Origin: Armatimonadota bacterium
GTDB taxonomy: Bacteria; Armatimonadota; UBA5829
Assembly: GCA_029907315.1 (NCBI GenBank)
Contig: JARYME010000014.1
Span: 1-42,790 of the forward strand
Length of the DNA stretch: 42,790 nt
Direction of reading: 5' to 3'
Each line of letters starts with the position of its first letter. Position 1 is the stretch's first letter. Below the pieces are notes generated by a model. The model saw only the letters and a program-made list of their open reading frames with translations. It ran no database searches and had not been told where the DNA came from. The position numbers and the translations under genes were made by a program. This document shows positions 13,259 to 40,150 of the stretch, one piece after another.

Positions 13259-13362
13259 TGGTTTATTCAATTCGACCAAATCATGTCGCATGCAGGTATG
13301 CGGTAGCTTGCAAGCGAAGTTTGTGAATGATACAAGCAACTAATAGGCGGAGTAGATGTGAG

Positions 13363-14856
13363 ATGAATCAGCCGGAAAGAATTCTTGGGAAAGTGTGCCG
13401 AGCCCTGGACACGTTGAGCAAGTTGGCGGATGATTTCCAGGGGTTGTTCCCCTCAATTATCGACTTGGAGACCCTGCGTATGCCGGAAGAGCTGCCGCCA
13501 AAGATACCCGGTCAACGAAATGAGGACCGCGCACATCCAGGCAGCAACCTAATGCACGACAAGTACGCTTTGGCGACAATGTACGGAGTGGCTAATTTGA
13601 CGAGGCGCGAGTACTCCGAAGTCGCAGATCGCTACTTGCAGCGCTTTGCTATCCACTGTACGAACACCACTACGGGGCTTTTCCCCTGGGGAGAACACGC
13701 ATTTTGGGACGTAAAGCACGATCGGATCGGCAACAGTTTCCCCTTGGCTTACGACTGGTGGACTAACCCGGCGATTCACGATCATTTGTCCGCAGCACCT
13801 TTTTGGCTGTGGGAAAAGCTACATCAATTCAACCCAAGGTGCGTTGAGCGCTTTGCGGAAGGTTTAGACTATCATTGGCGCGACGGAGAACCAATAGAGT
13901 ACTGCAGGCACGCAAATATTGAAATACGAGAGCGGCCTCCCAGAGAAGCAAGGTCATGTGATTTCCCGCGTCACGGCGGATTCTACATAATGGACTGGAC
14001 TTTCGCCTACCTGAAAACCGGCCGCCAGGACTTTCTGCAGCAAATCCACAAGATGCTCGACTACTGGTGGGAAAAGCGGGATCCGTCGACGGCTATGCTC
14101 CCACTTGAGAGTAAGACACCACCCGAAGTAACCGCCATATACGGCTTGACATCGCCTGGACAGGCTATGTCGCTGGCGATGAGTCTGTTCGAAACTGCCC
14201 AATTCATCAGGCGCAGTATTAGCGAAGCCGAACAACCAGACCAAGACGAGGGAACGTATGGCGTCTCAGACGCAGAACAACAAAGGCACCTCGAAAAATT
14301 GGCACAGACTATGTGGGAGCGAGCCACAGCTTATGCGAACTCGTTCTTGACGCTGCCACATGACCTGGCTAACGGAGTCTGGGTCAGCTGCACACGATTC
14401 GATACCGGAGAGATCGCGGGCACAATGAAATGCTGGGGAAGTGTTTACGGCTCAGGCGTCGCGGCGGGGGCTGCAAGGCTTTGTGTCGGCTTCTATCAGA
14501 TGACCGGTGATGAGAGATTCTTGCAGTTTGCGCAAGCTGTGGCGAAGGGTTATAAGACCGAACAGCTTCCCAGGGACGCCGTGGTGCCGGTATCCGACGC
14601 GGGCACCGTGATCGCACTTTTCGCCGATCTGTACGATGTCACTCGCGAAAAAGTTTGGTTAGAAGAAGGACTGAGAACAGCGGACGACATTATCGGCGTT
14701 TACTTTGACCGCGATTTGCCGCGCGGAGAAGCACACATCGATTACTACGACTCACAAATGGGGCCTGGCATATTGCTGCACTCGCTTGCTCAAATCGCTC
14801 TGTCGGCGTTGTACCCTGAGGAGTGCCCCATCCAACCGGATTACTCCGCAAGATAA
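13363..14856 (+). CDS. Unassigned (alpha/alpha)-barrel protein, possibly sugar-active
   Basis: From the ATG at 13363 the product has 497 residues; an earlier ATG at 13327 is possible, but its twelve extra residues look non-native. There is no signal peptide, so it should be cytoplasmic. The sequence is helix-rich with aromatic-Asp motifs (FPWGEHAFWD, YDWWTNP, DYWWEKRDPS) and a late repeat of paired helices around SDAGTVIALFADLYD and DYYDSQMGPGILLHSL. This resembles the (alpha/alpha)6 toroids of glycoside hydrolases, epimerases and polysaccharide lyases. I do not recognise a specific family or catalytic pair. Its position between lyase, PEP-CTERM and regulator genes suggests a role in processing imported oligosaccharides. 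Confidence 0.6.
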   Translation: MNQPERILGKVCRALDTLSKLADDFQGLFPSIIDLETLRMPEELPPKIPGQRNEDRAHPGSNLMHDKYALATMYGVANLTRREYSEVADRYLQRFAIHCTNTTTGLFPWGEHAFWDVKHDRIGNSFPLAYDWWTNPAIHDHLSAAPFWLWEKLHQFNPRCVERFAEGLDYHWRDGEPIEYCRHANIEIRERPPREARSCDFPRHGGFYIMDWTFAYLKTGRQDFLQQIHKMLDYWWEKRDPSTAMLPLESKTPPEVTAIYGLTSPGQAMSLAMSLFETAQFIRRSISEAEQPDQDEGTYGVSDAEQQRHLEKLAQTMWERATAYANSFLTLPHDLANGVWVSCTRFDTGEIAGTMKCWGSVYGSGVAAGAARLCVGFYQMTGDERFLQFAQAVAKGYKTEQLPRDAVVPVSDAGTVIALFADLYDVTREKVWLEEGLRTADDIIGVYFDRDLPRGEAHIDYYDSQMGPGILLHSLAQIALSALYPEECPIQPDYSAR

Positions 14857-14966: not shown

Positions 14967-16070
14967 TTACTGAGGTGGTTCAGTAAGTTCGTCAACTATG
15001 TCGGGCCGGATGGTTATTGTCTGTGGGCCATCCGGACCGTTTTTTTCGATCCGGCTGATGACGAGGTCTACCCCTGCCCTGCCTATCTCTGCCTGCTTTT
15101 GGACGACTTTGACCAAAGGCGGCATATTTGCCACCGCCGGAAAGCCGCCATCGAAGTAAGCTGCTAGCTCGATATCCTCAGGTATTCTGAGGTCGAGTTC
15201 CCGTGCAGCGCTTATGGTGCTTATGGCAAAGAAGTCGTTCAGAGCGAAGACTGCAGTCACCGGCTCCTTGAGCTGCCGCAGATACGCAAGGACGTGCTTG
15301 TACTCGTAGTAGTCCTTTGAGAATATTATAGGAGGACAGATCAACTCAGGATCAACCTCGATTCCGTGATCTATGAGAGCTTGTTCGTATCCGCGGCGGC
15401 GGTCCAATATCGAAGTATGCAAATTGGGCTCAACGTATGTAAAGTGAGCTATGCGCCTATGGCCTCTCTGTATTAGTATGCGCGTAGCTTCGTAGGCGCC
15501 CCAAAAGTGATCGCTTGCTACATAATCCACTTCGAACTCGACCGGCTTGTGGTCCAAGAACACCAACGGATACCCGAGTCGTCTCAAGCGATCGAATACC
15601 GGCAGGTTGTCGCGCAGAGCCACCGGAATAACCATAGCCCCCTCAATGCCCTCTTCCATCAAACGCTCCAGCTCTCCGTGCTCTGTGGCTGCGCAGTTAT
15701 CCGAATCAAAAAGAACCGGCTTGTAGCCGCGTTTTCGGAGCTCGCGAGCAGCGCTTCTTACAACGCCAGTTGGAAACGGGCCGACTATTTCCGGCACGAC
15801 CAGCGCAACGGTCTTGGTTCTCACACCGGTATTTTGTCGCCCTCCAGCAACAAACGTGCCGCGAGCAGCCCTTCTAACGAGCAACCCTTCGCTTACGAGC
15901 GAAGCAAGCGCGCGGCTGACGGTAGCCCTATTTGCATTGAAGCGCTCCGCCAGTTCTCGCTCGGGCGGTATGCGGTCGCCAACGGACATATTTTCGAGAA
16001 TCTCTTTGCGTAATATTTCGCGTATTTGTTGGTACGGAGCAGGTGCTCCCGGTTCTCTGATAATCGGCAT
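14967..16070 (-). CDS. GntR-family regulator with LacI-type sugar-binding domain
   Basis: The ATG at 16070 is chosen because GGAGGGG lies just upstream; this gives 367 residues. Residues of about 8-75 form a GntR winged helix (YQQIREIL, PPERELAERF, VSRALASLVSEGLL). Residues of about 85-350 form a periplasmic-binding-protein/LacI-like effector domain (TVALVVPEI, GYPLVFLDH, VTAVFALNDFFA, DIELAAYFDGG). AraR is the known model for this chimeric architecture, acting as a repressor released by a sugar. It sits between the putative sugar-processing gene and the mosaic surface protein, and a perfect palindrome lies just after its own -10 box. It is the likely local regulator of the polysaccharide locus; the effector sugar is unknown. 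Confidence 0.88.
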   Translation of the reverse strand: MPIIREPGAPAPYQQIREILRKEILENMSVGDRIPPERELAERFNANRATVSRALASLVSEGLLVRRAARGTFVAGGRQNTGVRTKTVALVVPEIVGPFPTGVVRSAARELRKRGYKPVLFDSDNCAATEHGELERLMEEGIEGAMVIPVALRDNLPVFDRLRRLGYPLVFLDHKPVEFEVDYVASDHFWGAYEATRILIQRGHRRIAHFTYVEPNLHTSILDRRRGYEQALIDHGIEVDPELICPPIIFSKDYYEYKHVLAYLRQLKEPVTAVFALNDFFAISTISAARELDLRIPEDIELAAYFDGGFPAVANMPPLVKVVQKQAEIGRAGVDLVISRIEKNGPDGPQTITIRPDIVDELTEPPQ

Positions 16071-16122
16071 ATACCCCTCCTCGAGGCGGCAGCGCAACCG
16101 TACTTCCCTCAGCGTGCGCCGT

Positions 16123-16315: not shown

Positions 16316-16416
16316 ACAACCAAAGAGACAATGGTTGAATCAGCGGACAGGGCGCACGTGGTATAGCACTTGTGCAGTTCGCAAAAACTTCGAAGAAAGG
16401 GAAGGGATCAGCGGTG

Positions 16417-19904: not shown

Positions 19905-22436
19905 TCAAAAAATTACGTCTACACTTCCCGATCCCTGGTCCGGAACCTGAATCGGCTGGCCTTGGAACGTTACTTGTTTCACATCCGCTCCAGACAGACG
20001 AATCACTTTGCCGTCCTTGCACCGCAGCACTAGAACTTCGGCATCGGCGCTGAGGTTCTCGCTGGGGATAGAGATCCGGCGCGTGTCTTTCCAGGAAACG
20101 ATTATGTAGTCCGTCTCGTTGCCGCGCACGATTTTAATTGCCGATACCCCTGGAGGATTGCCTTCTACAGCCAGGCGGGCAACCTTCACATCGGGAACTG
20201 TTTGTCCCTTGTACGGATAAAGAACAATATCGAATACTGCCGGCGTTCCGCCCTTCCTAGAATACTTCCACCCCTTGGACTTGATGGGTTTATCGGAGTC
20301 CATGCGGTGCGATGCTATGAAGAACTCAACCGGCTCCGAAACAAGACCATCGGTATCGACCGGCAGCATCAGCAGTTGGCCTTCCTTGGTGTAGCCCTCT
20401 GCCTGTTCGATAGGGAAACTGGTGTACACGGCTTTAGTGGCCGGGTCTTCGGTCAGCCCGGCATCCTCGGCGAAGTGCCAATTCTGGTCGTAGGTATGCT
20501 CACCCTCGCCCTCAACGCGATCTATGACGACCCAGTAGTCCGGCTTTACAAAGACGATTCCTCTGATGTGCATGAGCTTTTCATAGCCGTCAAACGAACC
20601 GAGTGCGTAGTCAAAGCCGTCGTTCGACACCCAGCGACGCGTCTTACCAGCACCCCCGGGCTGATTCTTGCCGTCGATGGTGATGGTGTTGTGGTAAGAC
20701 GTTTGAGGATATAACTGGACGTCGGCGCGCTCATAGCTGCGGATGCCTGGGTCAATAAGCAGCTCGCGACCGTAGGCATAGGCGGTTATGTTCAGCACGT
20801 CGTCATGCCCGTGAGCCCCTCGGCTTGTCTTGAAGACCAAATGCCTCGCGTGCTCGTAGGGCTTTTCATCGTAGCTGCTTCGCATAATACTCCACTGGCC
20901 GTGAGGAAAGTTCACAGACGCCTTTTCGGGCATCTTTCCTTCCTTGCCCCTCGTCCAGACGTATTTGATGTCCTCGCGTTTGAAGTACTCGAAGGCCTTC
21001 GGGAGAGGATATGCTGCACCCCCACCCCAGTCACCGATCGCCGGCATGTTCCCGTCCGGCTGAGTTACCGCAGCAAGAAAATCTTGGGTCTTGTTAAGGC
21101 GCGACCGAACTTCTGGATCAACGGCAATACCGGCTTCATCAAGTGCCTGCAGAGTGCCCAGCATGGCGTTATATGCGAAGCACACATAACCCGGGGCATC
21201 CTCCATTTCTTTTCCGTCGGGGTGCACATCGCGAAGCACGTTGCGCTCGAAGCTGGTCTTGCCATACTCAAGCCATATTGGGCGGTCGGCAAAGAATGGA
21301 AATTCCATAGCTATCCCCAGGACGGCCGCGGTTGAATGTGCAAGCCAGTTGCCCCCGGTGAAATTGTCGTTTTTGAGATAATCCGCGTGTTCCCAAATGG
21401 AATAAAGCCAGTTTGCCCAGAGTTCGTCGTCCACGTTCTTCGTGGCGGTCAGCCTAGCAAAGCGGGAGGTAAGCCAGCCCGCTCGCGCCGCCGAATCGAG
21501 TGTACGCCAGGTCGGATAATCGGCACCGCTCATCACTTCCGGTTTGGGGTTGGCATCGATCCAGTCGTAGAAGATCGATTTCAGGTAGCGAGCCCATCCT
21601 ACGTCACCTGTGTGATAAGCGGCATCAACCGGAGCGCCGATCGGCGACCCACGGTTGAGGAAGTTCTTGTGTTCATACCAGTCGCTGTTCTTCATATATG
21701 CCCAGTCTATTGGAACGACTTCAATACGTTTTATTCCGGCAAAGTCGAGTTCGCCTCGCCGCAATGCCTCCTGCCGAGACAGGTCGATCTTCGGGTTCCG
21801 CGGCTCAGCCGGGTACTTCTTGGCACAATAGGCTCTAAGCGCTGCACAGGCAGCCTTCCAATTCTTAGCCTCACAGTACTTGTAGAAATCCTCCAGTCCT
21901 GGAACACCGGGTTTGATGCGCTCGTAGAGCAGACGGGTCACCTCGTTAAGCCGAGGGTGCTCATAACCCTTGTAGATGCGCAGACCGTGTACCAGAGCTC
22001 CTTCCGAACCTTCACCCAGGTCGAACTTTACCCAACGCGCCTTTACCTTCGGAAGCCGCAACACCTGGAAGAGCCCCAGGTCCTTTTTCTCGAACACAAG
22101 CTTATAAGGACCCTGAGGAGACTTTGAGGAGACTTCTATACGAACCCTTTTGGCGTTTCGGTCTTCACCGGCACCTGCCGTACCGAAATCCACGCGGTCG
22201 AAAATGCGTTCCTGCCCCAAATCCACAATGAAGACTTGCTTCTGCGGCTCCTTTGCGAACACAAGCCTGCCTTTAGGCACTGGCGCATCGCTCAACAGCT
22301 TGTTGGGATCCTGATCGCCAACCAGCTTAGCGGTGCAAATAACGCTGGCGCCCATCTTAGGCGATGCAAAATTCACCGGATATGCCCAGACAGCTACAGG
22401 AACAAACAGTACAAGGATCGCGGCAAACAGTTTCAC
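19905..22436 (-). CDS. Secreted heparinase II/III-like lyase with N-terminal F5/8C-like domain
   Basis: The GTG at 22436 has a perfect AGGAGG seven bases upstream and starts a signal peptide (MKLFAAILVLFVPVAVWA); the ATG at 22460 lacks this. The product has 843 residues. Residues of about 25-145 resemble a coagulation factor 5/8 type C (Gal-binding) domain (FIVDLGQERIFDRVDFG, RWVKFDLGE). An alpha-toroid follows (about 150-480). Last comes a Heparinase_II_III beta domain with RGAHGHDDVLN, YGRELLIDPG and SYHNTITIDGK. It is a beta-eliminating polysaccharide lyase by family. It is the last gene of the leftward catabolic block, 83 bases after the nitrilase-family gene, and a paralogue of 9633-12374 with a different N-terminal module. 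Confidence 0.85.
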   Translation of the reverse strand: MKLFAAILVLFVPVAVWAYPVNFASPKMGASVICTAKLVGDQDPNKLLSDAPVPKGRLVFAKEPQKQVFIVDLGQERIFDRVDFGTAGAGEDRNAKRVRIEVSSKSPQGPYKLVFEKKDLGLFQVLRLPKVKARWVKFDLGEGSEGALVHGLRIYKGYEHPRLNEVTRLLYERIKPGVPGLEDFYKYCEAKNWKAACAALRAYCAKKYPAEPRNPKIDLSRQEALRRGELDFAGIKRIEVVPIDWAYMKNSDWYEHKNFLNRGSPIGAPVDAAYHTGDVGWARYLKSIFYDWIDANPKPEVMSGADYPTWRTLDSAARAGWLTSRFARLTATKNVDDELWANWLYSIWEHADYLKNDNFTGGNWLAHSTAAVLGIAMEFPFFADRPIWLEYGKTSFERNVLRDVHPDGKEMEDAPGYVCFAYNAMLGTLQALDEAGIAVDPEVRSRLNKTQDFLAAVTQPDGNMPAIGDWGGGAAYPLPKAFEYFKREDIKYVWTRGKEGKMPEKASVNFPHGQWSIMRSSYDEKPYEHARHLVFKTSRGAHGHDDVLNITAYAYGRELLIDPGIRSYERADVQLYPQTSYHNTITIDGKNQPGGAGKTRRWVSNDGFDYALGSFDGYEKLMHIRGIVFVKPDYWVVIDRVEGEGEHTYDQNWHFAEDAGLTEDPATKAVYTSFPIEQAEGYTKEGQLLMLPVDTDGLVSEPVEFFIASHRMDSDKPIKSKGWKYSRKGGTPAVFDIVLYPYKGQTVPDVKVARLAVEGNPPGVSAIKIVRGNETDYIIVSWKDTRRISIPSENLSADAEVLVLRCKDGKVIRLSGADVKQVTFQGQPIQVPDQGSGSVDVIF

Positions 22437-22519
22437 AGTCACACCTCCTGCTGCGTTCATTTCAAATCAGTGCTTGCAAAACCCGCATATTATTGGACAC
22501 GATGGGTTCTGGTCCGCGT

Positions 22520-23461
22520 TCACTCGTTTATTCGCCGAACGAGTCGAATGCCTTGCTCCCACCAAGACTTGAGGAACTCGGTGTCCAAGCTGCGCAGTGC
22601 TAACCATCGGTCAGCTTTCTTGATATCCAAATCGGCGGCGATCACCTGCTCCTCCTCGATACCGGCCTCAACCAAAATTTGCCCGCTGGGCGAAATGATT
22701 CGACTTTGCCCATGGGAACCCTCGTTCTTGGATTTGTCCCACGGCGCATTAGCGTGCACTACATACACAGTATTCTCCACCGCACGAGCTACAATCTGTG
22801 CTCGATAGGGCTCTATCTTTTCGGGCGCTTGTAAGCCGGACTCGTGAGAAATGTAAAAGATAATTCTTGCACCCGCCAACACAGGCAGCCGAACGAACTC
22901 GGGATATCGCTCGTCGTGGCATATGATGATGGAACAGAGAACGCCATCGATCGAGAAAACACTGAGGTGATCACCTGGAACAGCCCATTTCTCACCTGCA
23001 AGCTGAATCTTGTGGTATCTCTCGATAATTCTGCCCGCCGGAGTGATAACCACAGCAGAATTGAAGGCTTTGTCGGGCAAAAACGTCGGTATTCCGGCTA
23101 CGACATACACACCTGAGGCAGCCGCGGCCTTGCAAAGCTCTGCTTCAGCTTGTTCAAGCCTACTCTTGTCCAGCTTCTCGATAGCATCCGCAAAGTATCC
23201 GGTAACCGAACATTCTGGGAAAACTATTACCCGCGACCCCTGTGCCGCGCAGCGTTCAATGTACTCCTTGTGACGCACAACGTTCGCCTCGAGGTCTCGC
23301 GACGACCGAAACTGAACAACCGATACGCGAATAGACTGCGACGCTGCCTTTTTATCACTCACGGGCCTATCCTCGCTCGACCGAAGTAGGAGTATCGGTG
23401 CAGTCAATCCAGCCTTGATCAACTGTCTGCGTGTGTATTGCATTTGGTGCTGTGCCGACAC
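22520..23461 (-). CDS. Tat-exported nitrilase-superfamily (carbon-nitrogen) hydrolase
   Basis: The 313-residue product starts at GTG, whose first base is the last base of the preceding TAG stop, so translation is probably coupled. An ATG six codons later is an alternative. TRRQLIKAG (10-18) is a twin-arginine-type signal. The catalytic triad of the superfamily is present: Glu83 (FPECSVTGY), Lys151 (YHKIQLAGE) and Cys181 (IICHDERYPE). Family members hydrolyse amides, ureido groups or nitriles. An exported member in a polysaccharide locus could remove N-carbamoyl or N-acyl groups from sugars, which is inference. The fold and active site are secure; the substrate is not. Confidence 0.85.
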   Translation of the reverse strand: MSAQHQMQYTRRQLIKAGLTAPILLLRSSEDRPVSDKKAASQSIRVSVVQFRSSRDLEANVVRHKEYIERCAAQGSRVIVFPECSVTGYFADAIEKLDKSRLEQAEAELCKAAAASGVYVVAGIPTFLPDKAFNSAVVITPAGRIIERYHKIQLAGEKWAVPGDHLSVFSIDGVLCSIIICHDERYPEFVRLPVLAGARIIFYISHESGLQAPEKIEPYRAQIVARAVENTVYVVHANAPWDKSKNEGSHGQSRIISPSGQILVEAGIEEEQVIAADLDIKKADRWLALRSLDTEFLKSWWEQGIRLVRRINE

Positions 23462-24606
23462 TATGCATAAAGCTCGCTTATTTCTACAGGCCGGCCCAGC
23501 TTTATAGAGCGCTCAGCGGCAATAGGTATTTCGACACTTCTTAGGCCGATAGTGCCGTCCGCATATGGCTTCGAGCCTGTTTGTATGCATCTGATGAATT
23601 CCTCAAGCTCCACGCGAGAACCGCGGTGACCCGGTTCTTTCGGCTCCGGAAACTTCACTTTTATTATCTCGCGGTGGTCCCGAGAGGTGATCAAATGGAT
23701 TTCCTCCTTGTGGAGGTGACACTCGCATTTTCCCTTGTCTCCGATAGCCCACCACTCGACTTCTTCTCCCCAAGGTGCAAAGAAACACAAGCCAAGACAG
23801 CCCTTTACGCCGTTTTCGTAGTCGACCGTCACCCAAGCGTGATCGATAATTTCGAACTCTTTGTGCACGTTCTTGCCGCCGGTAGCAAACACGCGCACGG
23901 CGCGCACACTGTCCCCAAGCATCCAATTGAAAATGTCGAAGTGGTGGCAGTTCTTCTCTACCAAGGCCCCGCCCGAAATCTCACGCATTCGCCACCATGC
24001 CTTCTGCTCTTCCAACGAGACTTCGGTCCTTGCTTCTTGAGCAGCTTTAGCGGCTTCGGCGCTGTCGGCGAACTGCCGGCTCTTTGTCCGCAGCGTATGA
24101 GCATATTGGATGAGCAAGTTCTGAAAAGGCGCTCTGAACTCTTTGCAGAACATCATCTGGAGGTTGCCGATAGCTCCGCTCTGAATGATCTCGACGAACT
24201 TGTGAAACTGCGGGTTATATCGGCACAGGAGCCCCACTTCAAGGATCTTGCCTGCTTTCTCTGCAGCCTGCATCATAGCCAAACAATCTTCTATAGTGGG
24301 TGCCATCGGCTTCTCGGTGAAGACGTGTTTACCGCAGGCAAAGGCTTTCTCTGCTTGAGGCCGATGCAGGTGATTTGGTGTGGAGATAACCACAGCTTCG
24401 ACATCAGGGTCTTCGATCAATTTATCAGCATCAAGATAGAGCTTGCACTCTGGACCCACGTACTGTCGGGCAGATTCCAGATGCTCCGGGTTAATGTCGC
24501 ATATTGCGACAACTTCGGCGTCCGGGATCTGCGTCAGGTTATAAACGTGTCCGGAAGCCCCCATTAAGCCGAGACCTATAACACCGCACTTTACCTTTTT
24601 CGCCAT
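23461..24606 (-). CDS. Gfo/Idh/MocA-family NAD(P)-dependent oxidoreductase
   Basis: This 381-residue cytoplasmic enzyme starts at an ATG with AAAGGA six bases upstream. The Rossmann motif is GVIGLGLMG (8-16), and the EKP motif at 98-100 (HVFTEKPMAP) is diagnostic of the family. A C-terminal alpha/beta domain carries the substrate site (GGALVEKNCHHFDIFNWMLG). Members oxidise or reduce sugars and inositols, and some perform redox-assisted glycoside cleavage. In this block it probably modifies a released uronate or amino-sugar derivative. It is followed without a gap by the nitrilase-family gene. The exact substrate is unknown. Confidence 0.9.
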   Translation of the reverse strand: MAKKVKCGVIGLGLMGASGHVYNLTQIPDAEVVAICDINPEHLESARQYVGPECKLYLDADKLIEDPDVEAVVISTPNHLHRPQAEKAFACGKHVFTEKPMAPTIEDCLAMMQAAEKAGKILEVGLLCRYNPQFHKFVEIIQSGAIGNLQMMFCKEFRAPFQNLLIQYAHTLRTKSRQFADSAEAAKAAQEARTEVSLEEQKAWWRMREISGGALVEKNCHHFDIFNWMLGDSVRAVRVFATGGKNVHKEFEIIDHAWVTVDYENGVKGCLGLCFFAPWGEEVEWWAIGDKGKCECHLHKEEIHLITSRDHREIIKVKFPEPKEPGHRGSRVELEEFIRCIQTGSKPYADGTIGLRSVEIPIAAERSIKLGRPVEISELYA

Positions 24607-24627
24607 AGCACATCCTTTCCTAAGGAA

Positions 24628-26007
24628 CTAGAACCAGCTTGCCGTATACTTTTCCGGCATCTCGCGGCTTACGCGGCGAAGCCAATCCCAAAACCGCCAA
24701 CGCTCAAGTTGTTCGAGCGTAGCTAAACCATTCATGCCCCCGCGGACCTTCTCGTTGATGGTTTTTCTCTGCTGTTCATTCAGTTGCCCTGCATCCCAAT
24801 CCGCCAGCAGTTCTACGAACAGTTCGCCATCACTTTCGCTGCCGAGAACCTGGCCCATCGTCTTCCGACCGAAGTCGAGCAGGCTGTCCTCAGGCCAGTG
24901 TATGAAGTGCGAGAATGCCAAGTAGTTAAGCGCCCACGGAATGTGCCTTGCAGTAACCTCGCCGTGAATACTTACTCCTTCAAATCCCGTCCGGTAAGCC
25001 CTGAGGCAACCCTCCTTGATTGCGCTCACAGCCAGATCATACCTGCCAACCCAGTTCCACTGACTCGCCTGATGAAGAAAACCCGCACTACGCGCACTTG
25101 GCGGTTTCACATCTACTGGCCATCGCGGATTGTCAAACGCCTCCGCAGGGGCGCCATTGTCAAGAAAAACCTTTAGCGGAAGCTGGTCGAAGTGCACCAT
25201 CTCCGTGATCGTCCACTGGCAAACGCCGTCAGGATGGATCTTGTCGAACATCGCCGGCCGATTGCAGTTCATAAACCGATGTGATTTTCCCTCTGGGTCG
25301 GTTCCTGGCAGGAAACCTGTGTATGTAGCATAAGTCACCAGTTTGTCTCGAAGTTGGCCCGACAAAGCGTCGAGCGCGGGCACGTAACTGAGAGCCTGAA
25401 GTCGGAAGAAATCGGGATCATCAGCCGGCCAGGAGTTTTTGTGTGCCCTACAGCGCGGCTCGTGGCAAACAACAAAGTCCCCGTTCTCCAGGTTCGCACC
25501 CCCGACAGCAAACTCCCTAAACAACCACTGAAGTCCTTCCGTCAGCCAGTCGATGTATGCAGGATGAGTCGGACAAGCGCCGTGCTCCTGGGGCTCGCCG
25601 TTTTCATCCACCATCCGCGCGTCGGGATTTTCTCGGAGGAACGTCTCGAGATTGTAAGGGTGGTCACCCTCGTAGTAGATACCTCCGTACCACGTGGTAC
25701 CCACCCCCGGCATTATGGCGACTCCCTTGGACGCCGCATAATCTGCGACGGCTTTGGAATAGTCCACACCGCCGTGTGAATCCCTCAGGAAGCCCCAGAT
25801 CACGATACCTTTGACTCCAAGCGCAGCCGCTAGGTCCGTAAGCCGGCGGTAGTCTTCAATAAACGTTTCGGGACGTTTGAGGTACTTATTGGCGCAACCG
25901 AAATTCTGAAGGCCAGGGTCATCAAGCACCCAGTTGGTACTGTGGTCCCAGGTCCAGAAATATGAACTTGGCAGAGCTGGTTTTGAAGGTCTATCAAGCT
26001 TCCACAT
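24628..26007 (-). CDS. TIM-barrel glycoside-hydrolase-like protein, function unassigned
   Basis: The 459-residue product has no signal peptide. GVKGIVIWGFL, GVAIMPGVGTTWYGG and an ENGDFVVCHEPRCR segment follow one another as in an (alpha/beta)8 barrel, with many Trp and carboxylates at the ends of predicted strands. The pattern recalls alpha-glucuronidase- and DUF4838-type glycosidases, but I cannot assign a family or name catalytic residues with confidence. The final quarter is helical (DWDAGQLNEQQRKTINEKVR). It lies 21 bases before the oxidoreductase gene and 61 after the beta-helix gene, inside the catabolic block. A sugar-cleaving or sugar-binding role is inferred from that position. Confidence 0.6.
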   Translation of the reverse strand: MWKLDRPSKPALPSSYFWTWDHSTNWVLDDPGLQNFGCANKYLKRPETFIEDYRRLTDLAAALGVKGIVIWGFLRDSHGGVDYSKAVADYAASKGVAIMPGVGTTWYGGIYYEGDHPYNLETFLRENPDARMVDENGEPQEHGACPTHPAYIDWLTEGLQWLFREFAVGGANLENGDFVVCHEPRCRAHKNSWPADDPDFFRLQALSYVPALDALSGQLRDKLVTYATYTGFLPGTDPEGKSHRFMNCNRPAMFDKIHPDGVCQWTITEMVHFDQLPLKVFLDNGAPAEAFDNPRWPVDVKPPSARSAGFLHQASQWNWVGRYDLAVSAIKEGCLRAYRTGFEGVSIHGEVTARHIPWALNYLAFSHFIHWPEDSLLDFGRKTMGQVLGSESDGELFVELLADWDAGQLNEQQRKTINEKVRGGMNGLATLEQLERWRFWDWLRRVSREMPEKYTASWF

Positions 26008-26068
26008 AGCCCACCCCTAAGGCAAGAACATATATCGGGTCCGACGTGCCGGCTTGGACACCTGCACA

Positions 26069-27331
26069 TCATTCCGAGTTGAAACCTATTTCCGCTTTAC
26101 CTTCCTTCATCTTGTTCTCGATTCTTGCGCCGCCGCGCATGTTGTTGCCGACAATCGTGGCGCCGTAGACGTTCGGCCCGAGCTCTACCTGGACTTTTCC
26201 GTCGTCCATGAAGTCGCAGCCGGACACGTTCAGTCGGCGGCAATCGGCGCGAATGACCGGATCATCGCCAGGATGCCTATTGAAGTGGCAAGCTGTGACG
26301 GTAACAGTGCCAAGCCCCTTCAGATCGAGGTACGGACCCTTGCCGCCCCAAAATCCGCAGTTAGCGAACTTAACTGGCCCATTGCTTTGATCCGTAACCA
26401 CCACAGTGCCCATAAACTGGCAGTTGACGAAAGACACTCCCGAATGCGGTTGAATCTTCTCAACAAGCACCGCTGTCGGACACCCGTCAGCGCCTGAATT
26501 GGTGATAACGGCATTGCCGGGTCCGCTGCTGCCATTAATGAAGTGAAAGCCGACTTTGTAGCAAATGCAGAAGCAGTTGTCCACATACTGCCAGTCTGTT
26601 CGCGCGAACTTGAAGGCCGTTGCGTGCTTCTGGGTGTAAAGCATCAGCTCACCATCCCAGAATGGCCAAAAATGCACATTCTGAATGCGACCGACATCGA
26701 AACAGTGGTCAACGAAGATGCCTATATTGAGCGGCTGCCCAGAAACATTGCGGATCATGTGGCGACCGTTGCCACGCAGACCAAAGTTGATACCGTTCCA
26801 AGGGTTCACGAGCATAACGTCAACTACGCTGCAGTCATACTCAGCACCAGCTATGCACCACGGATAAGGCACCGGATTCTTCCGGTCCTGTTCCGGATAA
26901 TAGATTGCTAGTCCCTTAACGCAAGCTCCGGAGTTCAGAAAGATGAATGGCTCACCCTGTTCAGACCCCCTGCCCTCGACCGCCAACAACTTGCTGCACT
27001 TGAACGAATTCAACGTACCCGGAGAGCGCAGTGTACCCTCAAGTGTAACGTGCATAGGAACATTGAGGTGACCTTTGATCAGGTAGTCGCCGGTAGGCAC
27101 AAACACGATGCCGCCGCCATCCTTTGCTGCGGCGTCAAGAGCTTTTTGGAATGCGGCGGTGTCGTCGGTAACCCCGTCGCCCTTTGCACCAAATTGGATA
27201 ACGGAGTAGACACCCTTCTGCTGCCCCCAAAACAACTCATTGGCCGTCTGCTCACCCAGACACGGTCGGAGAAGAACAACAGAAAGCACAACAGCGCCGA
27301 TTAATCGAGCACGGTAATCTGTCATATGCAA
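26069..27331 (-). CDS. Secreted right-handed beta-helix protein (pectate lyase superfamily type), copy 2
   Basis: The 420-residue product starts at a TTG with GGAGG six bases upstream. That ribosome site lies inside the end of the preceding gene, so the two are translationally coupled. An ATG two codons later is possible. A signal peptide ends near CLGEQ. The N-terminal motif YSVIQFGAKGDGVTDDTAAFQKAL is here given only in its parts: IQFGAKGDG and TDDTAAFQKAL mark the pectate lyase superfamily/GH28-type beta-helix entry. Later repeats contain VGRIQNVHFWPFWDGE. Known members cleave pectin-like or other uronate polysaccharides. The preceding gene is a close tandem paralogue. No polygalacturonase catalytic Asp pattern was recognised. 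Confidence 0.78.
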   Translation of the reverse strand: MHMTDYRARLIGAVVLSVVLLRPCLGEQTANELFWGQQKGVYSVIQFGAKGDGVTDDTAAFQKALDAAAKDGGGIVFVPTGDYLIKGHLNVPMHVTLEGTLRSPGTLNSFKCSKLLAVEGRGSEQGEPFIFLNSGACVKGLAIYYPEQDRKNPVPYPWCIAGAEYDCSVVDVMLVNPWNGINFGLRGNGRHMIRNVSGQPLNIGIFVDHCFDVGRIQNVHFWPFWDGELMLYTQKHATAFKFARTDWQYVDNCFCICYKVGFHFINGSSGPGNAVITNSGADGCPTAVLVEKIQPHSGVSFVNCQFMGTVVVTDQSNGPVKFANCGFWGGKGPYLDLKGLGTVTVTACHFNRHPGDDPVIRADCRRLNVSGCDFMDDGKVQVELGPNVYGATIVGNNMRGGARIENKMKEGKAEIGFNSE

Positions 27332-27332
27332 T

Positions 27333-28619
27333 TCAGTCCTCCGCGTTCAACCCGATCTGAATGTTGCCTTTGCTCTTATTCTCGATCTTGGCTCCGCCGC
27401 GGAGCAAGTTTCCCATTATCACAGCTGATTTCTGGTTTTCTCCAAGCACAATCTGCTTCTTGTCTGCGTTCATAAAGTCGCAGTTGGACACGGTGAGAGC
27501 TGCGCCATTCGAGTAGATACATGGTTCGCCCTTGTTTTCGGCATCCCATGTGATAAAGTGGCACGAATTGAAAATAACGTGACCGTTTCCCAACACACGC
27601 GCATGGTTGATGGTCTCCTTGGGCAAGCCCCAGAACCCGCAGTTGGTGAACTTCACGGGACCATTGTTGGTATCTCGAATGTCGATGCCCGCCATGAACT
27701 GACAGTTTACGAACTGGAGACCGGCGTGGGGTTGGCATTTCTCGACGAGGACCGCGCACGGCCCTATATCGGCGCCAGAGTTACTGATGACCACGTTGCC
27801 GGGACCGGCGTCACTTGCGGCAAGAAAATGGAATCCCACTCGGAAAAAGATCGTGAACGTGTTGTGGATGAACTGCCAGTCGGTGCGTCCGATCTTGAAG
27901 CCTGTGCCGTTCTTGTAGGTGTAATCTTTCATCAGGGGCACGTCCCAAAACGGCCAGAGATGAACATCCTCGATTCGCCCAACGTCGAAGCACTTGTCAA
28001 TGAAAATGCCTGTCTTGATCGGTTGGGCGTAGAGTCCTTTGATGTAGTGACGGCCGCAGGGTCTGGTGCCAAAGTCTACAGCCTGCCACGGGTTAACAAG
28101 CAGGACGTCGACTATAGAGCAGTTGTCGCCTTCCCCAGCAATACACCACGGGTATGGAACGGGGTTCTTCCGATCCTGCTCCGGATAGTAGACTGCGAGA
28201 CCTTTAATCACCGAATCGTGGTGCATAAAGATGAACGCCGGACCGTCTTCTTTTCCTTTTCCCTCAACCGCAAGAAGCACGGACCCTTTGTAGTTGGCGA
28301 CGTCGATACCCCTGATTGCACCCGTCAAGCTCGGCGGCGCCTGAAAAACTCCCTGCAGCGTGACTTGCGACGGTATCTCAAGATGACCCTTGATGAGATA
28401 AGCACCCGAGGGCACGAAAACGATACCGCCCGTCTTGCCCGCCTCGTTGAGGGCTTTCTGAAAAGCCTCGGTGTCGTCTGTGGTACCGTCTCCTCTTGCT
28501 CCAAAACTGGTAACGCTGTAAACGCCCGGCTGTCCCAGGACAGCCTGCGGAACGTCGGCGGCTTGTAGAGTTACCGCAGCCAATAAAAGCACTACCAACC
28601 CGATTGCACCTGCACCCAT
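27333..28619 (-). CDS. Secreted right-handed beta-helix protein (pectate lyase superfamily type), copy 1
   Basis: ATG 28619 is chosen because GGAGG lies nine bases upstream and the product then begins with a signal peptide (MGAGAIGLVVLLLAAVTLQA); an ATG at 28661 would precede the ribosome site. The 428-residue chain opens with VTSFGARGDG and TDDTEAFQKAL, the start of a pectate-lyase-superfamily beta-helix. It shares long segments with the next gene, including YYPEQDRKNPVPYPWC and CFDVGRI..VHLWPFWD. The tandem pair suggests a recent duplication with specialisation for related substrates. A predicted promoter lies directly upstream, so expression can be partly independent of the kinase gene. 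Confidence 0.8.
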   Translation of the reverse strand: MGAGAIGLVVLLLAAVTLQAADVPQAVLGQPGVYSVTSFGARGDGTTDDTEAFQKALNEAGKTGGIVFVPSGAYLIKGHLEIPSQVTLQGVFQAPPSLTGAIRGIDVANYKGSVLLAVEGKGKEDGPAFIFMHHDSVIKGLAVYYPEQDRKNPVPYPWCIAGEGDNCSIVDVLLVNPWQAVDFGTRPCGRHYIKGLYAQPIKTGIFIDKCFDVGRIEDVHLWPFWDVPLMKDYTYKNGTGFKIGRTDWQFIHNTFTIFFRVGFHFLAASDAGPGNVVISNSGADIGPCAVLVEKCQPHAGLQFVNCQFMAGIDIRDTNNGPVKFTNCGFWGLPKETINHARVLGNGHVIFNSCHFITWDAENKGEPCIYSNGAALTVSNCDFMNADKKQIVLGENQKSAVIMGNLLRGGAKIENKSKGNIQIGLNAED

Positions 28620-28698
28620 AACCAAATTCCTCCCACCTAAAATAATCCAAATCCGGCACATAAACGGTTACTCACCCCGTCACCATTGCCTTGCGCAC

Positions 28699-28727
28699 AG
28701 TATAACAACAAATGGATTAAGTGTCTA
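28699..28727 (-). promoter_or_regulatory. Internal promoter before the tandem beta-helix genes
   Basis: Read leftwards, TAGACA (28727-28722), a 17-base spacer and TATACT (28704-28699) match the -35 and -10 consensus at five of six positions each. The -35 box overlaps the stop codon of the kinase gene. The predicted start is near 28692. It would give the six downstream genes expression independent of nagB-like/kinase transcription. Confidence 0.6.
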
Positions 28728-29705
28728 GGCCAACTGCGCGTATATTGACCAGACACGTTCGCGCGTTATGTCCTTGTTTATCGTATGGGGTGAAGTCACA
28801 GACAGGCCTGCCACGACCGCTGCCAGCTTGTGAGCCTGCGCTACGGTCATTCCTTCTGCTAGACCCACGAGCATGCCCGCCAAATGAGCATCGCCCGCCC
28901 CGGCAGTGCCCACTGGCTCCACGTCCATCGCCGGAACGTGCTGGAGTTCTGTGCCGCTCCACGACCAGCTTCCCTCACGTCCTGCAGTAACGACGACTAC
29001 CATACCAGGGTTAATAGATGCTGCTCTCTCCACAGCAGCTCGAACAATATTCTCTGTAGGACTCCCCTCCGGCAAATCGGCGAGCACCGACGCTTCGTCA
29101 CGGTTCAGAGCCAACAGGTCAACCTTTTGCAGGAGGTTCGAATCGAGTGCCGGCGTGACCTCCTCAGACGTAAAGGATGCCGCTCGAAAGGACTTATAGT
29201 GGGTCGCAAGATCAAGTAGCGCAACCCGTGCTTCTATGGGCACCTCGGGCACAGCAAGCGCGATGCCCCGAGAACCGAATCTCTGAAACTCCGGCTCGGC
29301 CCGACGGACGAAATCCGCATCGACCTTGGAACAAGCAGAATCGTCGGTTGTCAGATTCCCACCGCTTCCGTCAGGATACACGAAACAGAATGAAAAGAGT
29401 GTGGAATCTCCTGGCGAGATCTCGACGTATCGCAGGTCGAGTCCTATCTCAGACATCTCGCGCAGCAGTCTTTGCCCGACTTCGTCATCTCCAACTTTGC
29501 CTATGGGAATAACCTCAAACCTCGGCCGAGATAAAACCTTGACGTAGTGAGCAATGATGTGGAGCTTGCAGTAGTCGCGTCTGTCCAGGAAGTGCCCGCC
29601 CCGGCTTTCTTCACGACCAAGTGTAGCGTTGCCGCGAATAGCAAAGAAGACACCTGCCCCAATCCCACCAACCCCGATCATCCCCGAAAACCTTTCAGCA
29701 CTCAT
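28725..29705 (-). CDS. PfkB-family (ribokinase-like) sugar kinase
   Basis: The 326-residue enzyme begins with a GVGGIGAGV glycine motif. It ends with the PfkB signature GTAGAGDAHLAGML, where Asp272 of GAGD is the expected catalytic base. LLALNRDEASVL (197-208) is the usual inter-motif segment. Family members phosphorylate sugars such as ribose, 2-keto-3-deoxygluconate, fructose 1-phosphate or tagatose 6-phosphate. Beside a NagB-like gene and lyases, a keto-deoxy-uronate or amino-sugar derivative is the natural guess. The start at ATG 29705 has a distant GGAGG; an ATG eight codons later with AAAGG before it is an alternative. The gene lies 61 bases after the NagB-like gene. Confidence 0.88.
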   Translation of the reverse strand: MSAERFSGMIGVGGIGAGVFFAIRGNATLGREESRGGHFLDRRDYCKLHIIAHYVKVLSRPRFEVIPIGKVGDDEVGQRLLREMSEIGLDLRYVEISPGDSTLFSFCFVYPDGSGGNLTTDDSACSKVDADFVRRAEPEFQRFGSRGIALAVPEVPIEARVALLDLATHYKSFRAASFTSEEVTPALDSNLLQKVDLLALNRDEASVLADLPEGSPTENIVRAAVERAASINPGMVVVVTAGREGSWSWSGTELQHVPAMDVEPVGTAGAGDAHLAGMLVGLAEGMTVAQAHKLAAVVAGLSVTSPHTINKDITRERVWSIYAQLA

Positions 29706-29766
29706 AGACGCGCACCCAGCCTCCAGCGAGAGTAGATGTTCTGCACTTTACCGGCAAACCCGTTCT

Positions 29767-30639
29767 TCACACACCGAGATCCCACTCAGGATGCTCGCTG
29801 ATGGGGTGCCGAGCAGTATCGATTGTGGCAGTAATCAGAGCATCAGGATGCTCCTGAAGGAGAGTCATTGGATACTCCGGGGTGGGATATCCAAAGAGAG
29901 CGACTCGAAGAGCGGTGGCTTTCCATGCGCCTGTGTCGCTCCATAAGCGCACCTTCTTGGCTGAAAGACATTCTTTCATACCCAAAGTAACGGACATAGG
30001 GGGCACAAACTGGTATGCAGCCCCGAACGTGCGATGCGCCAGCGCCAGAACCGTATCGATGTTGTTGTATTGGATGCGGATGGTAGATTCCCTCAACTCA
30101 TCCAAGGTTATCTGACTGAAGGGTTCGCGGCGAGCTTGGTTGTATGCTACGTGGCCGTCCTGGCCCCATCCGCCGTATGTTATGTCTATCGGAGCCTCCC
30201 ATATGCGCCGACGGACTTCTTCGATATTGTTCGGGGTCAGCCAGACTCTGTTTTCCTCCGGCACAGCCAGCGCCGGATCGACAGGATCATAGAAACGCTC
30301 TTCCATGAAGCCTCGGAAACAGTAAGGGTGTTTTCGAGGCAACTCGCGGCCCTGCCAGTCAAGGCATTCGTCCATGTGGAAAACGACTAGTCCCTTAAGG
30401 CTGACTCTCTCGCGATTCACCAACTCAGTGAAAGGCTTGTACCAGCACGCAGGACCACATGGGATAATAGCACGAAGCTCCCCCTTGGCTTTGATCTCAT
30501 CGACCAATTCGCGAGCCATAAGCCAGCCCATTTCCTGGGAATCTTTGACCAACCTGAAGGGCACTTTGAGATTCGGATGCCCTTCCAGTTCAGTGTAGGG
30601 AATCTTGCACCATTCGTAGAGCTCTTTTGCAGTCACCAT
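29767..30639 (-). CDS. NagB/glucosamine-6-phosphate isomerase-like protein
   Basis: The 290-residue product is slightly longer than the usual 250-270 of NagB. It keeps the active-site blocks: FHMDEC (87-92, with Asp90 in the position of the proton-transfer Asp of NagB) and GGWGQDGHVAYNQ (156-168, with His163 as the ring-opening His). NagB converts glucosamine 6-phosphate to fructose 6-phosphate and ammonia. Divergence around CGPACWYKPF, which replaces the usual phosphate-loop sequence, means the substrate could be another amino-sugar or sugar phosphate. It is the first gene of the leftward catabolic block and diverges from a Tat-exported sulfatase. GGAGG lies ten bases before the ATG. Confidence 0.8.
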   Translation of the reverse strand: MVTAKELYEWCKIPYTELEGHPNLKVPFRLVKDSQEMGWLMARELVDEIKAKGELRAIIPCGPACWYKPFTELVNRERVSLKGLVVFHMDECLDWQGRELPRKHPYCFRGFMEERFYDPVDPALAVPEENRVWLTPNNIEEVRRRIWEAPIDITYGGWGQDGHVAYNQARREPFSQITLDELRESTIRIQYNNIDTVLALAHRTFGAAYQFVPPMSVTLGMKECLSAKKVRLWSDTGAWKATALRVALFGYPTPEYPMTLLQEHPDALITATIDTARHPISEHPEWDLGV

Positions 30640-30711
30640 AAACCGTCAGCCTCCACAACCCAGTGAGTAAGGCGTATCTCCGCAACAGCGACGTTTCCGA
30701 ACCACTTCTAA

Positions 30712-30724
30712 TTGGTTCAACCAA
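30712..30724. promoter_or_regulatory. Palindrome in the divergent sulfatase/NagB-like region
   Basis: TTGGTTCAACCAA reads TTGGT-N3-ACCAA, a perfect palindrome around a three-base spacer. It has the same form as the palindrome at 13216-13228 and fits the operator consensus described for FadR-subfamily GntR regulators (TnGTnnnACnA). It lies 73 bases upstream of the catabolic block's first start codon and 92 upstream of the sulfatase. Confidence 0.5.
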
Positions 30725-30815
30725 GTCGCCCCTACGTCCTTCAGGCAGGAATATGATTGATTCGCAGCGAAGTTTGACCGCAGTAGGCGGTACGAGGATA
30801 TCAGAGGAAAAATAT

Positions 30816-32237
30816 ATGAAGCACAACGGACTTACGCGAAGAGAGTTCCTGAGCGCCGCCGGTATATCGACCGCAGCAATGGCTTTGGGAAGCGGTTTAT
30901 TTGCGGCCGAACCGAAGCCCACAAACGTGCTGCTGATCACAGCCGACGACGCAAACTGGGACTCATTCGGCTGCACTGGCTGCAGAGCGCCCAATATCTC
31001 ACCGAACATCGACGCGCTTGCCGCACAAGGGATACGCTTCGAGCACGCACACGTCACCAGTGCAATCTGCCAGCCGTCCAGATCCGTTATCGGAACTGGC
31101 AGGTATCCTCACAGAAACGGCGCCCTCGGATTCGACCCGATAAGAACTGATGTGCCTACGATAGTCGAATGCTTCAGGTCCTCAGGATACTACACCGGCA
31201 TATTGGCAAAGGTGGAGCATATGGCTCCGCCGGCGAAGTTTCCATGGGATGTGGTTGTCAAGGGAGCGGAACTCGGAAATGGGCGCAACCCGCAGCTCTA
31301 CTATCAGCACACCAAAGCTCTAATCGAACAGGCGAAGGCCCAGGGAAAGCCTTTCTTCTTGATGGCAAATTCTCAGGATCCGCACCGACCGTTTCCGAGC
31401 ATAGATCAGCCTTCGGAAAACGTAAGCCGAATCTATAAGCCTGAAGAAGTCGACGTCCCGGGATTCCTGCCTCAGGGAATCCCCGACATCCAGAAGGAGA
31501 TTGCGCAGTACTACACGGCCGTTCACAGATGCGACGAAACGGTAGGCCAGATACTCAGAGCACTGCGCGATGCAGGCGCCGAAGAAAACACGATGGTGAT
31601 TTTCCTAAGCGACAACGGGATATCGGTTCCTTTCGCCAAGACCAACTGCTATGAAAACAGCACAAAGACACCCTTAATTATCCGTTGGCCCGGGAAGATA
31701 AAGCCGGGGCTGGTCGACAAGGAGCACTTTGTCAGCGGAATAGACTTGATGCCGACCTTGATCGATGCGCTGGGTCTGAAACCGGTGGAAGGCATGGACG
31801 GAACCTCGTTCGCTCCCATACTGCGAGGCGTAAAGCTGCCGGGAAGGGATAAGGTGTTCACTTTTATCACGAGCACCGCCGGCAGGAGATTCTACCCGAT
31901 GCGCTCCGTCCGCACAGCGACGAGAAGCTACATATTCAATGCCTGGTCGGATGGGAAAACTGAGTTCCAAAACGAGCCTATGAGCGGGCTTACCTGGAAC
32001 GCCATGGTGCGGGCAGGCAAGCAGGACTCGAAGATAGCCGCGCGGTGCGACTTCTTCCTGCACAGGGTGCCCGAGGAGTTCTACGATCTAACGAAAGACC
32101 CTTGCGAGCTGAACAATCTAATCGACTCACGCGCGCACCGTGAGGAAATAGATCAGCTCCGAGCGGAGATGCTCGATATGATGAAGAGTACGAGTGATCC
32201 GCTGTTAGATGAGTTTCGGAAAAAGATCGGCGCTTAA
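30816..32237 (+). CDS. Tat-exported sulfatase
   Basis: ATG 30816 follows AGAGGA and opens a twin-arginine signal (LTRREFLSAAG, residues 6-16); the open frame extends further upstream without meaning. The 473-residue product is a type I sulfatase. Metal ligands are Asp44-Asp45 (LITADD), the formylglycine site is CQPSR (Cys85 to Arg89), and a late SDNG motif completes the site. Export in folded form through Tat is common for sulfatases that are modified in the cytoplasm. It is transcribed away from the catabolic block and shares its regulatory region. It probably desulfates the polysaccharide outside the cytoplasm before lyase attack. The sugar position cleaved cannot be told. Confidence 0.9.
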   Translation: MKHNGLTRREFLSAAGISTAAMALGSGLFAAEPKPTNVLLITADDANWDSFGCTGCRAPNISPNIDALAAQGIRFEHAHVTSAICQPSRSVIGTGRYPHRNGALGFDPIRTDVPTIVECFRSSGYYTGILAKVEHMAPPAKFPWDVVVKGAELGNGRNPQLYYQHTKALIEQAKAQGKPFFLMANSQDPHRPFPSIDQPSENVSRIYKPEEVDVPGFLPQGIPDIQKEIAQYYTAVHRCDETVGQILRALRDAGAEENTMVIFLSDNGISVPFAKTNCYENSTKTPLIIRWPGKIKPGLVDKEHFVSGIDLMPTLIDALGLKPVEGMDGTSFAPILRGVKLPGRDKVFTFITSTAGRRFYPMRSVRTATRSYIFNAWSDGKTEFQNEPMSGLTWNAMVRAGKQDSKIAARCDFFLHRVPEEFYDLTKDPCELNNLIDSRAHREEIDQLRAEMLDMMKSTSDPLLDEFRKKIGA

Positions 32238-33090: not shown

Positions 33091-33093
33091 AGG

Positions 33094-34389: not shown

Positions 34390-34402
34390 CTCGGATTCCT
34401 CG

Positions 34403-35221: not shown

Positions 35222-35229
35222 GCTTCCTC

Positions 35230-36657: not shown

Positions 36658-36760
36658 TGTTCAGTAAATAGAGAGTCCTGAATGATCGGGCAAGTCCGGG
36701 GCAAGAACGTGAGCGTTAGCCGATTCCAATATATCGCAAACCAAACCCCAGGCGCAACCC

Positions 36761-36811: not shown

Positions 36812-36838
36812 CACCACGGTTCTTCCTAAACAACACCA

Positions 36839-37945: not shown

Positions 37946-38016
37946 TACTCATCGCTTGCCGACGCGAAGCCGCCGAACTGGAACAAGTTGGCCGGAAAGC
38001 AGAAAGAAGACGCCAA

Positions 38017-40144: not shown

Positions 40145-40150
40145 GCTCTA

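Follow-up and report, generated by a model that had tools for sequence, protein, structure and literature searches.

An eight-gene block on one strand

We analysed a 42,790-nt stretch of DNA from an Armatimonadota bacterium (contig JARYME010000014.1; hereafter the window), which belongs to a 3.3-Mb assembly (G000), and we focused on a block of eight open reading frames (ORFs) that may serve the breakdown of a sulfated glycan. All eight lie on the minus strand at 19905-30639 and are named, in coordinate order, HEP, NIT, GFO, TIM, BH2, BH1, PFK and NAGB-like. The genes are tightly packed, with intergenic distances of 59, -1, 21, 61, 1, 63 and 61 bp in this order, which confirms the description of eight leftward genes with short gaps in an earlier note on this DNA.

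Pfam searches agree with most of the family labels given in that note. HEP (19905..22460) is a heparinase II/III-type polysaccharide lyase (PF16889, 2.4e-28; PF07940, 4.9e-23), NIT (22520..23461) is a nitrilase-superfamily hydrolase with a twin-arginine signal (PF00795, 3.7e-40, 138.3 bits), and GFO (23461..24606) is a Gfo/Idh/MocA oxidoreductase (PF01408, 6.8e-28). The barrel protein TIM (24628..26007) is followed by two right-handed beta-helix proteins, BH2 (26069..27331; PF12708, Pect-lyase_RHGA_epim, 2.4e-15) and BH1 (27333..28661; PF12708, 2.3e-17), by the PfkB-family sugar kinase PFK (28725..29705; PF00294, 2.2e-31), and by the NagB-like sugar-phosphate isomerase/deaminase (29767..30639). 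By eye, HEP carries a Sec-type signal peptide and both beta-helix proteins carry signal peptides, while GFO and TIM carry none. All export signals were judged by eye except the twin-arginine translocation (Tat) signal of the adjacent sulfatase, which is the only one with support from a hidden Markov model (HMM). Among the annotated ORFs of the window, no transporter and no SusC/D family was found, as the note had also stated; the SusC/D pair that marks a polysaccharide utilization locus of that type is not seen among them.

The statement that sulfatases surround the block proved too strong. One sulfatase, SULF (30663..32237, plus strand, likely start at 30816; PF00884, 2e-46), is adjacent and divergent, and the other (265..1632, plus strand; PF00884, 1.3e-55) lies about 18 kb away, its membership in the locus being uncertain. 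The same uncertainty applies to a second HepII/III protein in the window (9633..12374, plus strand; PF16889, 5.2e-36). The genome holds 26 sulfatase and 12 Hepar_II_III_C matches, and a window of this size would be expected to contain 0.34 and 0.16 of them by simple proportion; two of each were observed.

The NagB-like protein and its kinase partner

The NagB-like protein matches the nagB model TIGR00502 (1e-18) and the solved NagB structure 1cd5 (1e-14), its score of 67.6 bits lies below the curated cut-off of 236.9, and no Pfam model matches it at 1e-3. A scan of named genomes returned 143 NagB-like relatives, of which the best 80 loci (63-93% identity) were retained. A PfkB match is found on the same stretch as the NagB-like gene in 75 of these 80 loci, and 64 have the two genes directly paired when gaps of -250 to 600 bp are allowed. 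In the other layouts, six over-long PfkB ORFs overlap nagB, three PfkB genes lie 1-3 kb downstream and two lie elsewhere on the stretch; PfkB was not found in the remaining five loci, two of which are on contigs shorter than 4 kb. By their deposited labels, the loci come from 15 phyla, ranging from Chloroflexota to Planctomycetota, Spirochaetota, Acidobacteriota, Bacillota and Actinomycetota. Of 151 genomes, 11 have a close orthologue of the NagB-like protein (at least 76% identity, with the window itself counted). In the literature consulted, mostly short of full texts, we found no account that describes such a pairing of a PfkB kinase and a NagB-like protein or assigns the pair a reaction.

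The NagB-like protein and 83 sequences from the 80 loci were aligned. The equivalents of E. coli Asp72, Asp141, His143, Arg172 and Lys208, most of which we take to be catalytic or phosphate-binding, are invariant in all 84 sequences, whereas the position of Glu148 is occupied by Gln in all 84. The pairwise alignment is gapped at Glu148 and could place E172 of the window protein there, but E172 is replaced by His in nine of the 11 close orthologues aligned. A more distant relative (42% identity) has Glu at the ungapped 148 position and His in place of the Asp141 equivalent. The NagB-like protein thus belongs to the same family as NagB and shares all the catalytic and phosphate-binding positions checked except one, but it differs in its Gln at position 148, its sub-cut-off score and its steady PfkB partner. 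According to the portion of PMC4008608 available to us, Glu148 has a mobile side chain that contacts the catalytic His143 in one of two states and a lysine of the allosteric site in the second, and the available portion of PMC4281351 counts it among the activator-binding residues. As far as these portions go, the change to Gln may therefore remove allostery, deamination or both. The pair is thus a two-gene module of about 15 phyla that has one clean active-site change and for which our searches returned no reaction.

The surroundings of the pair were examined on the fetched stretches, which extend up to 10 kb to each side in the 80 loci. NagA-like genes are found in six loci (two of the matches weak), AgaS-like genes in seven, GatZ in four and GatY in five, together with M20 hydrolases in 13 and weak PIG-L-like matches in six. 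Amidohydro_2, with eight members, is the commonest family in the set of 41 genes that come immediately after PfkB. The AgaS/GatYZ galactosamine route, in which AgaS is a SIS-domain enzyme, shares the logic of kinase, isomerase and aldolase with this module, and AgaS-like and GatY genes lie on the stretch of the pair in four loci (L060, L076, L085 and L092), two of which (L060 and L085) also have GatZ; by contrast, the annotated ORFs of the window show no AgaS, GatY or GatZ match. The context of the pair is mixed, and an amino-sugar role is favoured, short of proof.

The idea that de-N-acylase families fill a regular slot beside the pair was rejected as proof and is at most a hint. In the 79 loci without the sibling locus on the G002 contig (L054), all six members of the PIG-L-like cluster lie within 2.5 kb of the pair and 24 of 31 Amidohydro_2 genes lie within 5 kb, but the combined families show no trend: PIG-L, M20, NagA, AgaS and nitrilase pooled give 2.70, 4.03, 1.62 and 2.80 genes per 100 kb with rising distance, and when PIG-L is dropped the bin closest to the pair has the lowest density. 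The PIG-L label is itself weak, with 20.3 bits against a cut-off of 28.2 in L129 and two PIG-L matches at 1e-3 for the six cluster members among the 41 scanned downstream genes. On the gene tree, the PIG-L label changes three times (2 of 500 shuffles as low), Amidohydro_2 seven times (1 of 500) and M20 seven times (96 of 500). Nitrilases were likewise rejected as regular neighbours of the pair; beyond L054, solid matches are found only in L101 and L108, and the match in L100 is weak and lies in the PfkB ORF.

A locus in gut Lachnospiraceae/Dorea (L130 and L132) carries NagA, two Gln148-type NagB paralogues, PfkB, a ROK protein and one gene whose product clusters with ABC-transporter ATPases (scanned in L130 only). 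Cultured relatives could be a practical test system.

Fold of the TIM-barrel protein

No Pfam or NCBIfam model matches TIM (459 aa), and a search of solved-structure sequences returned a single chance-level match (E 0.4). The AlphaFold2 model is a confident (beta/alpha)8 barrel (mean pLDDT 86.4, pTM 0.90), in agreement with the label that the protein had been given. In VIA-align the top matches are GH20C 5a6k_A (Z 20.2), the O-GlcNAcase 5uhk_A (19.4) and the GH67 glucuronidase 1mqr (18.7), and the top rows at Z 18-20 are mostly hexosaminidases, including GH20 hexosaminidases and lacto-N-biosidases. GH20/GH84-type glycosidases carry an acidic residue at the end of strand beta-4 and a catalytic Asp-Glu or Asp-Asp pair after it. 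In 14 aligned sequences, E174 at the end of beta-4 is invariant and D177 is nearly so. TIM thus shares with these families the fold ranking and the acidic residue that ends beta-4, but differs in its lack of a Pfam match and an identity of about 10%. The hexosaminidase reading of the model is a ranking rather than proof, and TIM may be a hexosaminidase-like barrel protein that the Pfam and NCBIfam models used here do not cover. Homologues are present in 23 of the 291 genomes of the phylum, namely the two genus members, twelve genomes with matches of E 2.1e-29 or better (27-43% identity over the matched or aligned part) and nine with weak matches. In one of the twelve (G262), the TIM homologue lies 3.4 kb from a NagB-like gene of 39% identity.

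Lyase, sulfatase and beta-helix proteins

Both the N- and the C-terminal Pfam domains of HEP score above their cut-offs, which places it in the heparinase II/III superfamily. Its closest solved relative is heparinase III 4mmh (6.5e-31, over the catalytic core), with whose Asn, Tyr and His, presumably the catalytic residues, HEP N371, Y425 and H550 align. HEP is not a HepC equivalog, scoring 125.8 bits against NF045573 (cut-off 700).

SULF contains a CQPSR motif and a Tat signal that matches the TAT HMM at aa 57-79. Its best solved relative is N-sulphoglucosamine sulphohydrolase 4mhx (4.1e-36 over aa 72-514), followed by N-acetylgalactosamine-6-sulfatase (1e-34); other S1 families are close, and the few further matches that form a single stretch include S1_8 proteins. 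G000 and its genus sibling G002 each encode one sulfatase maturase that scores above cut-off.

Bacteroidota loci for glycosaminoglycan degradation of the heparan/heparosan type likewise combine a HepII/III-type lyase with sulfatases and yield amino-sugar end products. The present locus differs from them in several respects: no SusC/D is found among the annotated ORFs and no GH88 above cut-off in the genome, HEP lies far below the HepC cut-off, and the beta-helix pair, TIM, GFO and NIT are additional.

BH1 and BH2 are tandem paralogues (26069-28661) with 55% identity, and their family is common, being found in 96 of the 291 genomes at E <= 1e-20. The AlphaFold2 model of BH1 (pLDDT 85.3) matches the C5-epimerase AlgE6 (Z 36.5), the Sf6 tailspike (35.8) and the K5A lyase (30.0) in VIA-align, and polygalacturonase folds are also among its structural matches. 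BH1 thus shares the fold of the AlgE-type mannuronan C5-epimerases, but with 18% identity and a phage tailspike within 1 Z unit. From the model, the beta-helix proteins might be lyases, epimerases or hydrolases, so the claim that the block joins two lyase types is unsupported as it was put; the pair cannot be called lyases, and the closest fold is that of a C5-epimerase.

GFO is nearest to iolG among the NCBIfam models (159.3 bits, cut-off 355), and most of the solved chains that it matches are either dehydrogenases of sugars and inositol or oxidoreductases with no specific name. No GH109 chain is named among these solved-structure matches, a result that does not by itself exclude a GH109 glycosidase role.

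The nitrilase-family protein

NIT keeps the nitrilase triad (E83, K151 and C181, aligned to 3ivz and 2w1v). Its solved relatives include nitrilase homolog 2, aliphatic and formamide amidases and N-carbamoyl amidohydrolases. The proposal of a Tat-exported nitrilase holds in that the triad is intact and a twin-arginine motif is present both in NIT (TRRQLIK) and in its G002 orthologue (TRREVIK), but no TAT HMM match is obtained at 1e-3. The homologues in G016 and G018 (51-52% identity) have Sec-like signals by eye. In G288, the gene for a 50% homologue shares a run on one strand with genes for a radical SAM/SPASM protein and a sulfatase. Twelve NIT neighbourhoods from other Armatimonadota show no NagB-like or PfkB match to the window proteins.

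An N-deacylase role for NIT is conjectural, with genomic context as a hint. In the portion of PMC12017989 available to us, the characterised carbohydrate de-N-acetylases (CE4, CE9, CE11, CE14, CE18 and OngB) are all metal-dependent, and a term search of that article returned no mention of kinase, NagB or M20. NIT, with the Cys-Glu-Lys triad of the nitrilases, would share only the proposed reaction type with these enzymes. Were NIT to act as a de-N-acylase, it would extend the mechanisms of sugar deacetylation beyond the metal-dependent families. A far-reaching version of this idea, that the operon holds the first exported, metal-independent, cysteine-dependent carbohydrate de-N-acylase and that this enzyme feeds a widespread, uncharacterised amino-sugar module of kinase and Gln148-type NagB, is in our view quite improbable.

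Conservation and co-occurrence

The order HEP-NIT-GFO-TIM-BH-PFK-NAGB is kept in the genus sibling G002, together with the divergent sulfatase and the upstream regulator. The block proteins of the two genomes are 74-96% identical, and omega is 0.02-0.10 in the seven gene comparisons with computable dS (sulfatase included; GFO and BH2 gave no dS). The regulator is a GntR/LacI-type protein (14967..16097, minus strand; PF00392 and PF13377) that may control the locus, and its counterpart on the G002 stretch compared is 95% identical over 273 aa. G002 has one beta-helix gene instead of two; its product is 91% like BH1 with a BH2-like C-terminal tail, as would be expected if a deletion had fused two tandem copies. 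The third genus member (G001, 67% complete) has no match to TIM or the NagB-like protein at E <= 0.001 or to NIT at E <= 1e-25. Promoter and terminator scans gave sites no more numerous than in shuffles.

In the class set of 28 genomes (G000-G027), G000, G002, G016 and G018 are the only four with a close NagB-like protein (at least 76%), and they are likewise the only ones with NIT (at least 50%) and with a gene of the type found at 13327..14856 (E <= 1e-20); HEP at 50% identity or more occurs in these four plus G019. The identity thresholds were chosen after the data had been viewed, and the four genomes comprise one pair from a single genus and a second pair from a single other family, so the pattern represents nearer two events than four. 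NIT matches (E <= 1e-25) are found in every one of the 11 genomes that have a close NagB-like orthologue and in 33 of 291 genomes overall, but nitrilases form a large family and the two weakest of the 11 matches are only 31-32% identical.

The gene at 13327..14856 (plus strand) encodes a Pectate_lyase_2-like protein (PF06917, 29.2 bits, cut-off 26.6; no signal peptide by eye) that possibly serves the same function. A homologue of 49% identity follows PfkB, in the same orientation, at a distance of 276 bp in G016 and of 471 bp in G018, where a small ORF intervenes, and in G114 and G089 the homologues overlap or are next to a sulfatase-like ORF. This adjacency to PfkB and sulfatases elsewhere links the gene to the system despite the 5 kb that separate it from the block in the window. 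The copy in G002 (L233, G002:C8:146067-147600) is broken by TGA stops and split over two matches, which suggests decay or misassembly.

A candidate operon for a sulfated glycan and its alternatives

Gene families, gene order, conservation in the genus, the folds of TIM and BH1, the kept catalytic residues and the cross-phylum NagB-PfkB pairing are computed, and from them we infer co-transcription, a substrate, an order of reactions and roles for NIT, TIM, GFO and the beta-helix proteins. The reading that we favour, with a probability of roughly 0.48, is that the eight genes form a single catabolic operon whose substrate is a sulfated glycan with both hexosamine and uronate. Outside the cytoplasm, HEP, one or both beta-helix proteins (as lyase or epimerase) and the Tat-exported SULF would trim the chain, and NIT would strip an amide-linked group, most simply the N-acyl group of the hexosamine. 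The oligosaccharides would be taken up by a transporter encoded elsewhere, and in the cytoplasm TIM would act as a GH20/GH84-like exo-hexosaminidase, possibly with GFO. The freed amino sugar would be phosphorylated by PFK and converted by the NagB-like isomerase/deaminase to a ketose phosphate.

This reading is favoured by the tight one-strand run kept with SULF in G002, the NagB-PfkB pairing, the amino-sugar genes near the pair, the fold matches of TIM, the nearest solved chain of SULF and the residues of HEP. The shared occurrence of the NagB-like, NIT, HEP and 13327-type genes in the class, the NIT matches in every genome with a close NagB-like orthologue, the G288 run with a sulfatase and the maturases of G000 and G002 count in its favour as well. 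At the sequence level, the sulfated and uronate-containing substrate proposed in the earlier note is plausible, given the adjacent Tat sulfatase in both genus members and the heparinase III Asn, Tyr and His kept in HEP. Its amino-sugar component is somewhat better backed by the recurrence of the pair with amino-sugar genes and by the GH20/GH84 ranking of TIM, but genes for neutral sugars are also found near the pair. Should it turn out to be an ordinary locus for glycan utilisation, the block would be a further such locus in a genome already rich in sulfatases and HepII/III proteins.

Several observations weigh against the operon for a hexosamine- and uronate-containing glycan. The block as a whole is absent outside the genus among the neighbourhoods examined, being found in G000 and G002 only; HEP, BH and TIM matches occur in one of the 80 NagB loci, which is that of G002 itself, and outside the genus only NagB and PfkB stay linked, plus the 13327-type gene in G016 and G018. 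The HEP orthologues of these two genomes adjoin, by eye, an FtsY-like gene. GH88 reaches at best 19.4 bits in G000 (cut-off 26.6) and gives no match in G002, and the enzyme that usually acts on unsaturated uronates is therefore missing. By eye, the NIT homologue of G288 has no signal, which indicates that export is common to only a part of the NIT clade. Near the pair, the M20, NagA, AgaS and nitrilase matches are not densest beside it. As for TIM, Cwp19 of C. difficile (Z 18.6) and GH67 are also among the matches, 976 of 1000 aligned chains reach Z 8, and the Foldseek TM-scores to the top matches are below 0.5.

The Gln at the Glu148 position, invariant as it is, could mean isomerisation without deamination, and this also speaks for another explanation, in which the kinase and a pure aldose-ketose isomerase act on a neutral or deoxy sugar and feed a class II aldolase, the polymer being a uronate polymer without amino sugar (pectin-, ulvan- or fucoidan-like). 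We consider this somewhat unlikely. Consistent with it are the FucI/sulfoquinovose-isomerase-like genes of 13 loci (two of the matches weak) and the class II aldolases of nine, neither of which are amino-sugar enzymes, as well as the LacI regulators, GH31/36-like genes and aldose-epimerase genes near the pair and the PF12708 and polygalacturonase matches of the beta-helix proteins. On the other side, the remaining catalytic and phosphate-binding equivalents are all kept, the top fold matches of TIM are hexosaminidases, and the mobility of Glu148, in the portion of PMC4008608 available, implies that its loss need not end deamination.

The restriction of the full block to G000 and G002 would also be expected of a loose array of general carbohydrate genes in this genus, with NIT as a scavenging amidase and the kinase and isomerase serving general sugar metabolism unrelated to the lyase. 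The occurrence of HEP, NIT and TIM homologues in other contexts and the commonness of the BH family fit such an array, but the near-overlapping one-strand genes, an order kept at saturated synonymous divergence and the matching presence pattern of the gene families in the class make it unlikely. It is very unlikely, though in keeping with the breadth of the nitrilase superfamily and the diverse amidase relatives of NIT, that NIT targets a uronamide, carbamoyl or peptide-linked amide of a polymer or glycopeptide instead of an N-acyl hexosamine. In G016 and G018 the NIT homologues are followed by a 1686-aa ORF, which in G016, the one scanned, matches FtsX and M28 peptidase models and counts in favour of such a target, but in G000 and G002 NIT stands in a run with amino-sugar-type genes.

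Other genes of the window

A plasmid search returned 54 records, every one below 60% identity. On the left of the block, 4479-9416 encodes two large FG-GAP repeat proteins, the second of which also matches TcdB_toxin_midN (2.6e-11), perhaps through its repeats only. A PEP-CTERM protein is encoded at 12440-13111, and the product of 16372-19056 is a protein of 894 aa that weakly matches Laminin_G_3; the G002 copy of the latter is 31% similar to the PEP-CTERM protein over 181 aa. On the right, 32269-41704 contains genes for System II cytochrome c biogenesis (ResB and two CcsA-like proteins that flank HemA), the siroheme decarboxylase subunits AhbA and AhbB, both above the NCBIfam cut-offs, two AhbC/AhbD/NirJ-like radical SAM genes below the cut-offs, and a uroporphyrinogen methyltransferase-HemD fusion. 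The radical SAM genes, at 36839 and 38957, were considered as sulfatase maturases and rejected, since the heme-pathway models match them far better. The region is a cluster for the siroheme-dependent heme pathway.

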